Shown here: positions 5,997 to 29,164 of the stretch, in pieces
How positions within the stretch are numbered: the first letter of the stretch is position 1
Layout: the number at the start of each line of letters is the position of its first letter
Made by a program: the position numbers and the translations under genes
Source of the DNA: Streptomyces composti
GTDB lineage: Bacteria; Actinomycetota; Actinomycetes; Streptomycetales; Streptomycetaceae
Length of the DNA stretch: 64,000 bases
Direction of reading: 5' to 3'
Assembly: GCF_012034205.1 (NCBI RefSeq)
Contig: NZ_JAATEM010000020.1
Location: 62,001 to 126,000 of the forward strand
Notes under the pieces: model-generated
Databases searched by the model: none
Seen by the model: the letters and a program-made list of their open reading frames with translations, nothing else
What the model was told of the DNA's origin: nothing

Positions 5997-7316
5997 TCAC
6001 CCCGCGTCCACCTCGGTCCCGGCGCTCAGCACCTCGCGCAACTCCCCCAGGTACGGGCCCACATCGACCTGGATGGAAGCGCCCTGGGTGAGGCCGTAGC
6101 GCTCGGCGATGGAGGCGTGGTACGCGGCGATCTCCTCGCGCATCTCCTCCGGCGAGGGCAGCACGGCCTCGCCCCGCACGATCCGCGTCACCCACTGGGC
6201 CTGCGCCTCCACCAGCCGCGTGATCGCGCCCACCGGGCGGACCAGGCCGACGAAGTACAGGCCGGGCCGGTCCGGCGCGACGACCCGCCGGTACAGCTCG
6301 ACCGGGCCGTCCGGGGCGGCCGGGCAGCCGGCCGGCAGGAACGGGTACGCCATCCGGTAGCCGGTGCAGTACACCACGGCGTCCGCCTCCGCGGACGTGC
6401 CGTCGGTGAAGACCACCCGGCCGCCGTCGAAGGATCCGATGGCCGGTTTCGGCGTCACCCGGCCGTGCCGGATGCGGCTGAGGATCTCGTCGGAGATCGT
6501 CACGGCGGAGGAGAAGATCGGGTGGTCCGGCTCGGGCAGCCCGTAGTCCGAGAGCCGGCCGCGGGCCACCAGCAGCGCCTGCTCCACGAAGCGGCGCTTC
6601 TGGGCCAGCGTCATCTCGTTCCACCACGGGGTGTCGGCGATCTCGTCCAGGGACATGCCGAACAGCTGCTTGGGCACGACGTGCAGCCCGCGGCGCACGG
6701 ACAGATACGTCTGCTCCGCGTGGCGGGAGAGATCGGCGGCGATGTCCACCGCGGAGGCGCCCAGGCCCACCACGATCACGCGCCGGCCGGTGAAGTCGCT
6801 GCCGTCGCGGTAGTCGAGGGAGTGCAGGACACGGCCGGTGAACCCGTCCGCGCCGGCGGGGAGCGGATCGGGCAGCGACGGTTCCGTGTGGTGCCCGGAG
6901 GCGACGATCACGTGCTCGAAGCGCCGGGCCGCCACGGCGCCCTCGGCGTCCCGGCTCACCACCGTCCAGGTGCCGTCGGCCTCCTGGTCGGCGGAGACCA
7001 CCTCGGTGCGCAGCTCCACACGGTCCAGCACGCCCGCCCACTCGGCGAACGACCGCAGATAGGCGGCCATGTCGCGGTGGCTGGGATAGAGCGGATACGA
7101 GTCCGGCATCGGGAAGTCGCGGTACCCCGTGAGCTGCTTGGCCGTGTTGAGGTGGAGGGAGAGATAGCCGGGGCCCCGCTCCCCCGCCTGCGGCCTGCGC
7201 CAGATGCCGCCGACGCCGGGCGACTTCTCCAGGCAGACGAAATCGGTACCGGCCTCCTTCAGGGCATGTGCCACCGCAAGCCCCGACAGCCCCGCCCCGA
7301 TCACGCAGACCCGCAC
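5997..7316 (-). CDS. Flavin-containing monooxygenase
   Basis: A 439-aa FAD/NADPH-dependent monooxygenase of the FMO/Baeyer-Villiger class. The N-terminal FAD Rossmann motif is [17 protein letters not shown] at about residues 7-23. A second Rossmann motif, [17 protein letters not shown], binds NADPH at about residues 180-196. The FMO-type lead-in [14 protein letters not shown] and the C-terminal [16 protein letters not shown] (ATGY-like motif) are present. The start is the GTG at 7316 because the FAD motif follows immediately; longer in-frame extensions are GC-rich noise. The substrate could be an amine, sulfide or ketone; it is not predictable here, and no biosynthetic neighbours are present. 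Confidence 0.9.
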
Positions 7317-21945: not shown

Positions 21946-22302
21946 GCCGCGGCATGGTTGCCGCTCCGGGCGGGGGCCGACAGAGGACCCGGCGGTAATT
22001 CAGCCGTTCGGGCGGTTGTTCGCCATCGCGGCTGCATGATCCGAACTCCCCTGCTCCAGCGAGGTGATCGCCGCTGCGGGCAGCGGGTGCGAGGGGCCGG
22101 CCGGGACGGAGGATCTGGCCGGATCCGGCGCGGGCGGTACGGGGGGTGCGGGTGAGGCGGGTGCGGGCGCCGTGCGCCGTGACGGGCGGTTCGGCGGCCT
22201 CATGCGACCGGGCCCCGCCCGGGCCGCGGCGGTTCCGCGGCCCGGGCGGGGCCCGGTGGCGGGTTCCGGGTCACCGGCCGGAGGAACCGGTGCGCGGGCC
22301 GG
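21946..22302. other. Intergenic region between hypX and the DUF2267 gene
   Basis: About 360 bases with no credible coding frame. The part next to hypX should hold its promoter. The part next to the DUF2267 gene holds a very long hairpin, described separately. Confidence 0.45.
22207..22257 (-). terminator. Very long perfect hairpin downstream of the DUF2267 gene
   Basis: A perfect 23-bp inverted repeat (arm ACCGGGCCCCGCCCGGGCCG then CGG) with a 5-nt loop, 46 nt after the DUF2267 stop codon. It is one of the strongest stems in the window. It is symmetrical enough to stop transcription from either side. Confidence 0.7.
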
Positions 22303-26402: not shown

Positions 26403-27749
26403 ATGAACGCTCACGACAACACCCCGGTCCCGCCCCCGGGTTGCCCGGCCCACGGCTCAGGCGGCCGGGTCCCGCTGTACGGGCCGGACTTCGCCGCCGA
26501 CCCGCAGGCGTACTACTCCTTCCTGCGTCACTACGGGCCCGCGGCGCCCGTGGAACTCGCCCCCGGCGTGGAGGCCACGCTGGTGACCGACTACGCGGCG
26601 GCGCTGCAGCTCCTGCACGACTCCGGCTCCTTCCGCAAGGACGCACGCCGCTGGCGTGCCTTCAACGAGGGCAAGGTGAGTCCGGACAGCCCGGTCACGC
26701 CGCTGCTGGCGTACCGGCCGAACTGCATGTTCGCCGACGGCGCCGAGCACTTGAGGCTGCGTCAGGCCGTCACGGACTCGATGGCGCGGATCGACATGCG
26801 CCGGCTGAGCCGCAGCACGGAGCAGGTCTCGCGGTACCTCATCTCCCAGTTCGCGGCGCGCGGTTCGGTGGACCTGCTCGGTGACTACGCCAAACAGCTG
26901 CCGCTGTTCATCTTCAGTGAGCTCTTCGGCTGTCCGGCCGACATCGGCGACCGGGTGCTGTTCGGCATCTCCGGGATGTTCGACGGCATCAACGCCGACA
27001 AGGCCACGGAGGTGCTGTACCAGGCCGTCGGCGAGCTGGTCACGCTCAAGCGGAGCCGGCCGGGAGAGGATGTCACCTCCTGGCTGATGCAGCATCAGGC
27101 TCGGCTCACCGACGAGGAAATGGTGCATCAGCTCGCGCTGCTTCTCGGATCGGGCGTCGAACCGCTGCGCAATCTGATCGGCAACACCCTGCACCGGCTG
27201 CTCACCAACGACCGGTACGCCCGCGAGGGCGGCCTGATCGACGAGGCCCTCGACGACACGCTGTGGGAGAACCCGCCCGTGTCCAACTTCGCCCCGCACT
27301 ACCCGGCGGCGGACATGGAGTTCGCGGGGCAGCAGCTCCAGGCCGGTGATCTGGTACTGATCAGCTTCGCCGCGGCCAACACCAGTCCGGCGCAGACGGA
27401 GGCGCGGCGGTCCGGCAGCAACCGGGCCCATCTGGCGTGGAGCGCGGGGCCGCACGTCTGCCCGTCGAAGGAACCTGCACGGCACATCACGGTCACCGCC
27501 ATCGAGGAGCTGTTCAACCGGCTGCCCGACGTACATCTGGCGGTTCCCGAGGAGAGCCTCACCTGGCGGCCGGGCCCGTTCCACCGGGCGCTCACCGCCC
27601 TGCCCGCCCGGTTCACACCGGTGGGTGTGCCGCGAGGAACCGCTCCCCAGGCGGCCACAGCACCCCAGCGGCACGAGGAGCCGGGCCCCGCCCCCAAGCC
27701 CGAACGCACCGGCATGTGGAGCCAGTTCCTGAGGTGGCTCACGAGGTGA
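26403..27749 (+). CDS. CYP157-type cytochrome P450 lacking the ExxR motif
   Basis: A 448-aa P450-fold protein, the usual fifth member of a conservon. The heme-ligand loop is WSAGPHVCPSKEPAR with Cys353. The K-helix position that should read ExxR instead has DDTLW (residues 284-288), followed by the normal ENPPVSNFAPHYPA stretch. The I-helix acid-alcohol pair is altered to LLLGSGVEPLRNL. Loss of ExxR is known in the CYP157 family, where EQSLW-like motifs occur, so this copy belongs there but with its own variant. Whether it is a catalyst or a regulatory heme protein is open. It starts 30 nt after cvnD. Confidence 0.92.
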   Translation: MNAHDNTPVPPPGCPAHGSGGRVPLYGPDFAADPQAYYSFLRHYGPAAPVELAPGVEATLVTDYAAALQLLHDSGSFRKDARRWRAFNEGKVSPDSPVTPLLAYRPNCMFADGAEHLRLRQAVTDSMARIDMRRLSRSTEQVSRYLISQFAARGSVDLLGDYAKQLPLFIFSELFGCPADIGDRVLFGISGMFDGINADKATEVLYQAVGELVTLKRSRPGEDVTSWLMQHQARLTDEEMVHQLALLLGSGVEPLRNLIGNTLHRLLTNDRYAREGGLIDEALDDTLWENPPVSNFAPHYPAADMEFAGQQLQAGDLVLISFAAANTSPAQTEARRSGSNRAHLAWSAGPHVCPSKEPARHITVTAIEELFNRLPDVHLAVPEESLTWRPGPFHRALTALPARFTPVGVPRGTAPQAATAPQRHEEPGPAPKPERTGMWSQFLRWLTR

Positions 27750-27853
27750 TATGTACAACATCGGTCCAAAGCGACTGATCCGCATGATGGTTGAACGGCA
27801 GGGGTAGTGAGGAACCCGGCACGAGGACCTGCTTTTCTGCATGAGGAGATGCC

Positions 27854-27952
27854 GTGGACCACATATCCATGGACGCCGGACAGTCGCCGAGACCTTCGAT
27901 ACCCGCCTCTCGAGGCGGGTATCTTCCTGTGCGGCGCGGGAGCGGCCGGTGA
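27854..27952 (+). CDS. Short ORF (32 aa) translationally coupled to the prenyltransferase
   Basis: GTG start at 27854 with a strong GAGGAG (27843-27848) 5 nt upstream. The peptide starts MDHISMDAGQSPRPSIPASR and ends GGYLPVRRGSGR. Its TGA overlaps the GTG of the prenyltransferase gene (GTGA). No family was recognised. It is hydrophilic, rich in Ser/Gly/Pro/Arg, with one Tyr and no Cys or Trp. It could be a leader peptide controlling the downstream gene, a peptide substrate, or a chance ORF. The strong RBS and exact coupling argue against pure chance. A perfect hairpin is embedded in codons 15-24. Confidence 0.45.
   Translation: MDHISMDAGQSPRPSIPASRGGYLPVRRGSGR
27898..27923 (+). promoter_or_regulatory. 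Perfect 26-nt hairpin/palindrome upstream of the prenyltransferase
   Basis: Inverted repeat with 12-bp arms (GATACCCGCCTC) and a 2-nt loop, lying inside the 32-codon ORF and ending 25 nt before the prenyltransferase start. There is no U tract after it. It may act as an attenuator, an RNA structure masking the downstream RBS, or a protein operator. Confidence 0.65.
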
Positions 27953-29073
27953 ACGCGGGGCTCGCCGGTGGTCCCGCGAGCGGGGGTGCAACCACCTTGG
28001 GAGGCTTCACCGGCGGTCAGCTGCGCAGGCTCTGTGCGGTGGCCGGGCTGTCCGAGGATGATGCGGACGGGTACGCGGAGGTGGTGGCCGGGTCGCTGGG
28101 CACGGTGGCCGGGCGGTCGCTGGATCTGCCGCCGCCGTCGCAGAGCTTCCTGTCCGACGACCACACACCGGTCGAGTTCTCGCTGTCCTGCCGGCCGGGG
28201 TCTGCTCCGGCCGTGCGGGTGCTCGTGGAACCGGGGTGCGGGGCGGGGAGCCTCGCCCGGAACGGGCGGGCGGGCCTGGCGGCGGTGCGGGCCATGACGC
28301 AGCGGTGGGGCTTCGCGACCGATTCGCTGGACGCGCTCGTGGAGCTGTTCCTGCCCGCGCGGCCGCGGGGTGTTTTCGCCCTGTGGTACGCCCTGGAGCT
28401 GCGTCCGGGCGGTGTGCCGGGCCTGAAGGTGTACCTGAATCCGGCCGCCAACGGGGAGGAACGTTCCGCCGCGACGGTGCGCGAGGCGTTGCGGCGCCTC
28501 GGGCACGAGCGGGCCCCCGACGTCCTGCCGGAGGCGGACGGCTACCCGTTCCTCGCCCTGGATCTGGGCGACTGGGACGCGCCCCGGGTGAAGGTCTATC
28601 TGCGGCACGACGCCCTCTCGGCACAGGCGGCGGGAGGCCTGTCGCGGATGCCGGCCGGCCCCGACCCCGGATCGGTCGAGGGGTTCTTCCGGGCGGCGGC
28701 GGGCGCCGACGTGCCGCTGCTGACCCGGCGGCCGGGGCTGACCTGCCACTCCTTCACCGAGACCGGCGCCGCCCGGCCGAGCGGGTTCACGCTGCACGTC
28801 CCCGTCCGTGACTACGCCGAGCACGACGGGGAGGCCCTGCGACGGGCGGCGAAGATCATGAGGGACCTCGGCATCGGGACCGCGGTCCTGAACGAGGCCC
28901 TGCGAGCCCTCACCTCGCGCCGCCTGGACGAGGGGGTGGGTCTGATCGCCTATCTGGCCCTGGCCCACCAGGAGGGCAGCCCGCCCCGGGTGACCGCGTA
29001 TCTCTCCTCGGAGGCGTATGCGGTCAGGCCGCCCAACAGGGCCCCGGCCCGCTCCGCGCAGCCGGTGTACTGA
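27949..29073 (+). CDS. DMATS-type aromatic prenyltransferase (ABBA fold)
   Basis: A 374-aa soluble enzyme that would transfer a dimethylallyl or similar group to an aromatic acceptor, classically tryptophan or an indole. The ten-strand barrel texts of the DMATS family are present: HTPVEFSLSCR and VRVLVEPGCGAGS, FALWYALELRPGGVPGLKVY with LNP, APRVKVYLRHD, GLTCHSFTE, FTLHVPVRDYAEHDGEALRR, and PPRVTAYLSSEAY. These carry the Lys/Arg/Tyr diphosphate-binding positions. It resembles streptomycete 5-/6-DMATS enzymes of the SCO7467/IptA type. The GTG at 27949 has GGGAG 6 nt upstream and overlaps the stop of the 32-codon ORF. It lies downstream of the conservon and P450 on the same strand. Confidence 0.92.
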   Translation: MNAGLAGGPASGGATTLGGFTGGQLRRLCAVAGLSEDDADGYAEVVAGSLGTVAGRSLDLPPPSQSFLSDDHTPVEFSLSCRPGSAPAVRVLVEPGCGAGSLARNGRAGLAAVRAMTQRWGFATDSLDALVELFLPARPRGVFALWYALELRPGGVPGLKVYLNPAANGEERSAATVREALRRLGHERAPDVLPEADGYPFLALDLGDWDAPRVKVYLRHDALSAQAAGGLSRMPAGPDPGSVEGFFRAAAGADVPLLTRRPGLTCHSFTETGAARPSGFTLHVPVRDYAEHDGEALRRAAKIMRDLGIGTAVLNEALRALTSRRLDEGVGLIAYLALAHQEGSPPRVTAYLSSEAYAVRPPNRAPARSAQPVY

Positions 29074-29128: not shown

Positions 29129-29164
29129 ACGATGAGCGCCCCCGGTGGCGCTCATCGTCGTTTC
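29129..29164 (+). terminator. Terminator after the prenyltransferase
   Basis: Perfect 12-bp arms (ACGATGAGCGCC) and a 6-nt loop, followed by CGTTTCT. It lies 56 nt after the prenyltransferase stop and separates the module from fadD. Confidence 0.8.

Follow-up and report, generated by a model that had tools for sequence, protein, structure and literature searches.

Organization of the locus

Between a P450-like gene and a DMATS-type prenyltransferase gene of Streptomyces composti sits an open reading frame (ORF) of 32 codons that starts with GTG, and the locus raises the question of whether this ORF is translated for the sake of its peptide or for its effect on the gene that follows. As argued below, it is probably a control switch for the enzyme. 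The features on which the argument draws are given here in the coordinates of the window, that is, the whole stretch of 64,000 nucleotides that was analysed.

From 23584: conservon, with a HATPase-type kinase gene followed by a roadblock gene, a DUF742 gene and a small-GTPase-like gene
26403–27749, + strand: P450-like gene of the conservon, directly upstream of the leader (NCBIfam P450 families, scores below the cut-offs)
27782–27807, + strand: putative SigB-family promoter GCATGA-N14-GGGTAG, a conserved upstream block assigned by sequence match only
27843–27848, + strand: Shine-Dalgarno (SD) sequence of the leader, duplex energy -8.6 kcal/mol
27852–27872, + strand: possible hairpin over the leader start, CCGTGGA / TCCATGG, from the predicted fold
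27854–27952, + strand: leader ORF, 32 codons, putatively cis-acting, with its TGA overlapping the DMATS GTG (GTGA)
27898–27923, + strand: conserved hairpin within the leader ORF (inverted repeat; pattern present in relatives)
27924–27930, + strand: T-rich tail 3' of the hairpin, TTCCTGT here and TTYTTGT in relatives
27949–29073, + strand: DMATS-type aromatic prenyltransferase, which the leader is taken to serve (PF11991, E 7.1e-12)

The initial annotation had described the ORF by a GAGGAG five nucleotides before the GTG, a stop codon overlapping the downstream start, a peptide with one Tyr and no Cys or Trp, and a perfect 12-bp stem, and each element was found in place. GAGGAG (27843–27848) is separated by five bases from the GTG at 27854, the TGA at 27950–27952 overlaps the DMATS GTG at 27949, the peptide VDHISMDAGQSPRPSIPASRGGYLPVRRGSGR has the composition described, and the arms of the stem (27898–27909 and 27912–27923, with 2 nt between them) are 100% complementary. 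Two further start codons, ATG 27841 (in the DMATS frame) and ATG 27849, share this SD region. An 18-codon ORF at 27751–27807 was discarded as a candidate for its overlap with the promoter block and for its lack of counterparts in the upstream alignment, inspected by eye.

The prenyltransferase resembles tryptophan-prenylating enzymes, its score against TIGR03429 being 140.9 bits, under the cut-off of 163.85. Among related loci, the enzyme gene is followed by a tryptophanase-like gene in L034 and L035 and by a flavin monooxygenase gene in L032 and L042. The window also encodes a flavin monooxygenase (PF00743) at 6024–7316 on the minus strand (G000:C14:68024-69316), 79% identical to its counterpart in L032; there the two genes adjoin, whereas in the window they lie about 20 kb apart, and the usual monooxygenase/prenyltransferase pair therefore appears to be split. 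The P450-like gene (26403–27749) matched no Pfam family at E 0.001. P450s carry an ExxR motif; at least 98 of the 100 homologues read keep the G-x-H-x-C motif, and at the site expected to carry ExxR the P450-like protein shows DEALDDTLWENP. Whether one should call it an ordinary P450 is therefore doubtful.

Sampling of related loci

A protein search across 392 genomes of the genus gave matches in 86 of them, and a contig scan for related loci gave 14 loci, partly at the same places. The resulting 84 loci were reduced to a first set of 65 distinct ones with the P450–prenyltransferase arrangement, leaving out 15 homologues (30–48% identity, no P450 match), the duplicates L033, L036 and L047, and L060; three loci without a P450 match (L009, L011 and L030) were nevertheless kept. 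The leader start of L060 had been missed by the template, and a TTG start with an ATGA overlap was found later; this locus stands outside the 99 analysed here. The second draw covered 391 genomes of the order, partly the same as in the first, with strong matches in 57. Its 37 loci yielded 33 further distinct loci with a P450, the others being L157 (a duplicate), L138, and L173 and L174 (44–46% homologues); one further 44% match, G522, was left out. L138, which has no P450 in the stretch examined, was added to reach the total of 99 distinct loci, 98 from Streptomyces and one (L159) from another genus of the family. Leader starts were assigned as the best template match, which is weak for L026, L030, L150 and L168, and in scoring the second draw both the start templates and the hairpin pattern were those derived from the first set. 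Nine homologues at 46–48% identity lacked the hairpin pattern (0/9), and no conservon or P450 match was detected within the 5 kb examined around them.

Coupling of the leader to the prenyltransferase gene

None of the 99 loci was uncoupled: the leader and the enzyme gene share a 4-nt stop–start overlap (NTGA) in 85 and are fused in frame in the remaining 14, and a recount gave identical figures. The overlap was found in all 61 non-fused loci of the first set, in which four loci are fused, and the 33 loci of the second draw comprised 23 overlaps, 10 fusions and no uncoupled case. Placed on the enzyme tree, fusion of the two requires about five changes. This constancy of the junction goes along with a leader of variable size, from 31 to 83 codons across the 99 loci, and with a distance from start to hairpin that takes 16 values between 44 and 137 nt, 14 of which keep the frame. 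The hairpin is read in a common frame in 52 of 57 first-set loci. The leader frame is open in all 61 non-fused first-set loci, as against 22 and 42 for the other two frames; since short leaders nearly always leave the +2 frame open, the argument from frame draws mainly on the long leaders and on the indels. From this comparison of loci, which supports leader–enzyme coupling, evolution seems to preserve unbroken translation that runs from the start of the leader into the enzyme.

The start codon of the enzyme gene itself is predicted to be fully paired in the window (P(unpaired) 0.00), and the median SD energy is -9.2 kcal/mol for DMATS versus -12.6 for the leader (61 loci) and -3.2 for the background. 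The DMATS SD is fair in several loci; it beats that of the leader in 16 of 61, and the leader SD is the stronger in the other 45. Many loci have an open DMATS frame upstream of the DMATS start; general ribosomal frameshifting into this frame was rejected, because L019 and most loci related to it carry a stop codon in the DMATS frame after the hairpin.

An apparently unconstrained leader peptide

The initial annotation had proposed frame preservation and dN/dS in related genomes as tests of the ORF, and the two gave different answers: the leader frame has been kept through many indels, and the peptide sequence appears nearly unconstrained. When leaders of equal length were grouped, pN/pS in the 12 groups ranged from 0.58 to 1.49 and was near 1 in most groups, as against 0.21–0.49 for DMATS and 0.08–0.44 for the P450-like gene in the same strains. 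Slight constraint on the peptide is possible in four groups, with values of 0.58–0.74; overall, the leader peptide looks unconstrained. The recurring motif IPAxxGGY is what the hairpin sequence encodes in one of its frames. Eleven of the 84 loci with a hairpin read it in another frame, so that the DNA is kept and the peptide motif changed, and in 9 of these 11 the tail of the hairpin still starts with TTC. Attenuation through Trp codons, the only regulatory codon that was counted, was discarded: among 61 leaders, 47 have none, 13 have one and one has two.

A conserved hairpin with a one-sided tail

Within the window, 8 perfect stems (at least 10 bp, loops of 3–8) were found versus 0–3 in five Markov-shuffled windows; a perfect stem at this site is, taken alone, only mildly unusual. 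The longest one found lies elsewhere, at 22207–22257, where 23 bp pair perfectly around a 5-nt loop. The repeat of the leader folds as RNA into 11 bp with a 4-nt loop, and the 181-nt region is not strikingly stable (z -1.80, with 8 of 200 shuffles folding equally well).

Conservation of the palindrome, by contrast with the stem alone, is far beyond chance. The sequence RATACCCGCC-N6-GGCGGGTATY occurs in 39 of 392 genomes of the genus, at one site each and with no match to the reversed-pattern control, and all 39 sites lie directly upstream of the prenyltransferase gene, as judged by eye against the coordinates of the protein search. When the hairpin pattern was searched in 61 genomes with up to 3 mismatches, scattered extra matches were seen, and inspection by eye gave no common second site. 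Counted with one tolerant pattern around GATACCCGCC-N6-GGCGGGTATC, the hairpin is present in 84 of the 99 loci. Two of the 15 loci missed (L150 and L159) fall short of the outermost pair only; the other 13 seem, from their sequences, truly to lack the hairpin and are still coupled. The 6-nt centre is fixed in 56 of 57 first-set loci, and the stem shows G-T pairs and compensatory changes in both arms. Three of its 10 pairs have changed on both sides (0.1 expected, 0 of 500 shuffles), a count that excludes L065, with its 5-nt loop, and rests on three sequences; one of these changes is seen again in L161, from the second draw.

Conservation beyond the stem is one-sided, amounting to 10.96 bits over 12 nt on the 3' side versus 5.4 bits on the 5' side, an asymmetry that fits an RNA element better than a symmetric operator. 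The tail on the 3' side is short and often interrupted across loci, and the G at its position 6 is almost fixed (83/84). That the conserved tail is one-sided and T-rich suggests that the hairpin may act on transcription. A strict terminator scan of 27600–28100 gave no terminator; the tail TTCCTGT of the window is therefore weak, and a terminator function of the hairpin is putative. A hairpin 3' of the prenyltransferase gene (29129–29158) has a tail, CGTTTCTG, that is imperfect like that of the leader hairpin. The leader hairpin ends 25–100 nt upstream of the prenyltransferase start, which is therefore not simply covered by it.

The region upstream of the leader

The block GCATGA-N14-GGGTAG is nearly fixed in the upstream alignment, with GGGTA[GT] in 63 of 65 loci. 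At the sequence level, it shows the features of the SigB class, a GNNT-like -35 element and a GGGTA -10 element about 14 nt apart, and it has the same layout as the SigB-class promoter SCO0566p, given as GCATAA-N14-GGGTAT (PMC8346170). The promoter pattern is not enriched genome-wide (16 and 10 matches versus 25 and 29 in the reversed control). In L042 and L043, the first bases after GGGTAG form a long perfect RNA hairpin (TGAGCAACGCGG / CCGTGTTGCTCA) that would open the transcript, whereas the window has a degenerate version of it. What seems to be left of the P450 gene in L009 and L011, as judged by eye, is a short piece from each end, yet both loci have an intact leader and an intact prenyltransferase gene; the leader thus goes with the prenyltransferase.

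The start codon of the leader is predicted to be largely paired, with P(unpaired) 0.01 in the window and a mean of 0.17 over 65 loci versus 0.36 with shuffled downstream bases, and it is more paired than the shuffled controls in 53 of the 65. Covariation in this start-codon hairpin was not significant (observed values reached by 64 and 76 of 500 shuffles) in an alignment of 38 of the 65 loci, made up of those with at least 70% P450 identity together with L009 and L011; RNAalifold predicted no structure on this alignment or on the 5' leader.

A proposed translated leader as attenuator, and alternative explanations

With a probability of roughly 0.55, we favour a reading in which the ORF lies behind a SigB-like promoter and works in cis as a translated leader, with a hairpin that attenuates expression and ribosomes that pass into the prenyltransferase gene. 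Transcription would start at the putative SigB-family promoter just 3' of the P450 gene. A ribosome would enter at the strong SD and GTG, read through the hairpin and be handed to the prenyltransferase, presumably by reinitiation at the stop–start overlap or, in the 14 fused loci, by fusion. With a ribosome following closely, the hairpin would stay open; otherwise, hairpin and T-rich tail would fold and RNA polymerase would halt before the enzyme gene, much as in pyrBI. The start-codon hairpin may, as a weakly supported addition, set how often the leader is entered, and the peptide would be a by-product. Translation, promoter class, reinitiation and transcription attenuation are what we infer from these sequences. 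Points that weigh against this reading are the negative strict terminator scan, the 13 loci that are coupled and seem to lack the hairpin, and the fair DMATS SD of several loci. The initial annotation had envisaged a leader that, on being translated, unfolds the hairpin and gives ribosomes access to the prenyltransferase; the coupling in 99/99 loci, the kept frame and the nearly unconstrained peptide fit this well, with one modification, in that the hairpin lies ahead of the enzyme start instead of simply covering it and may act on transcription. In an extended form, which we consider tentative and on balance unlikely, the leader would serve the indole prenyltransferases linked to conservons as a dedicated RNA sensor: the start-codon hairpin would gate the first ribosome in response to a signal (the translation state, or a metabolite derived from tryptophan or prenyl units), the internal hairpin would convert this gate into a transcription choice, and ribosomes would be handed over directly.

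The alternative that deserves most attention is plain translational coupling, in which the ORF feeds ribosomes to the structured start of the enzyme gene and the hairpin serves RNA processing, stability or pausing rather than termination. Coupling in 99 loci with the hairpin pattern in 84, and the negative terminator scan, speak for it, and it is a real possibility, if clearly below an even chance; nevertheless, a one-sided T-rich tail that is kept in other frames, with its G in 83/84, is hard to explain in this way. The same one-sidedness bears on the idea that the 26-bp palindrome is a DNA operator at which a regulator blocks RNA polymerase downstream of the promoter. Its fixed centre and its single specific site per genome are what an operator would have, but compensatory changes in both arms, G-T pairs and a distance to the leader start that varies from 44 to 137 nt make this quite improbable.

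Two further explanations concern what the ORF encodes. It could be part of the prenyltransferase, an N-terminal stretch that is decaying or variable and has no regulatory role, in keeping with the 14 fusions and with the open DMATS frame upstream of the start in many loci; however, the out-of-frame NTGA form is the majority, and hairpin, tail and SD are better conserved than their surroundings, which leaves this a slim chance. That the peptide is itself a product or substrate, for instance a precursor modified by the P450 or the prenyltransferase, had been the second proposal of the initial annotation, and the position of the ORF next to both genes and the recurrence of IPAxxGGY in many loci could be read in its favour. 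It is now extremely improbable, given pN/pS near 1, the loss of IPAxxGGY on frame change (11/84) while the DNA stays, and the fusion of the ORF to the enzyme in 14/99 loci.

Comparison with known leader systems

A search of openly accessible papers found no earlier description of this leader among those listed. Rfam gave only six chance-level matches on the window stretch, far below gathering scores, and none at gathering in six loci. Reinitiation has been proposed at bacterial leader genes generally by Korolev et al. (PMC4833913). In Streptomyces, the leader peptides of amino-acid genes such as trpL and leuL, which are described as carrying regulatory codons (PMC8079986), likewise consist of a short translated leader with a hairpin upstream of the gene; unlike them, the leader described here has no run of regulatory codons, as far as Trp was counted, its hairpin lies inside the ORF and the ORF overlaps the next gene. 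Among the nearest described systems is the uPPE2-PPE2 relay of Mycobacterium tuberculosis, in which a downstream gene depends on the translation of another actinobacterial short upstream ORF with a 4-nt stop–start overlap (AUGA) (PMC11260477). The uPPE2 ORF is reported to be under the control of a B12 riboswitch, whereas no Rfam match at gathering scores was obtained here, and a conserved hairpin inside the ORF is not among the uPPE2-PPE2 features given in the accessible part of that source.

The neighbourhood is of the same kind as that of the conservon/indole prenyltransferase clusters of Ozaki et al., for which the available portion of the report mentions no leader ORF, hairpin or native promoter (PMC3617294). 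In the same report, S. lividans forms the product of its conservon/prenyltransferase cluster in negligible amounts unless a plasmid supplies the two genes. If this cluster carries the leader, a terminator-like hairpin would offer a testable reason for its silence and a point at which to release it.

The nearest parallel in mechanism is pyrBI of Escherichia coli, in which a terminator lies inside the 135-bp leader gene pyrL and a closely following ribosome prevents termination (PMC4824070, PMC5021804). In both cases the hairpin lies within a short leader, translated in pyrBI and predicted to be translated here (84/99 loci by pattern), and in both the sequence of the leader peptide seems unimportant, here with a pN/pS of 0.58–1.49 and with SD, frame and coupling kept. 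Unlike pyrL, the present leader is joined to the next gene through a 4-nt overlap or a fusion, belongs to another phylum and pathway, and has a terminator function that is putative; pyrimidine-sensitive pausing is a hallmark of pyrBI. If the proposed reading is true, a pyrBI-like attenuator would serve specialised metabolism in a high-GC actinomycete, and the natural series of loci in which leader and enzyme are coupled or fused, or the hairpin is lost, would provide material for studying the translational control of transcription.
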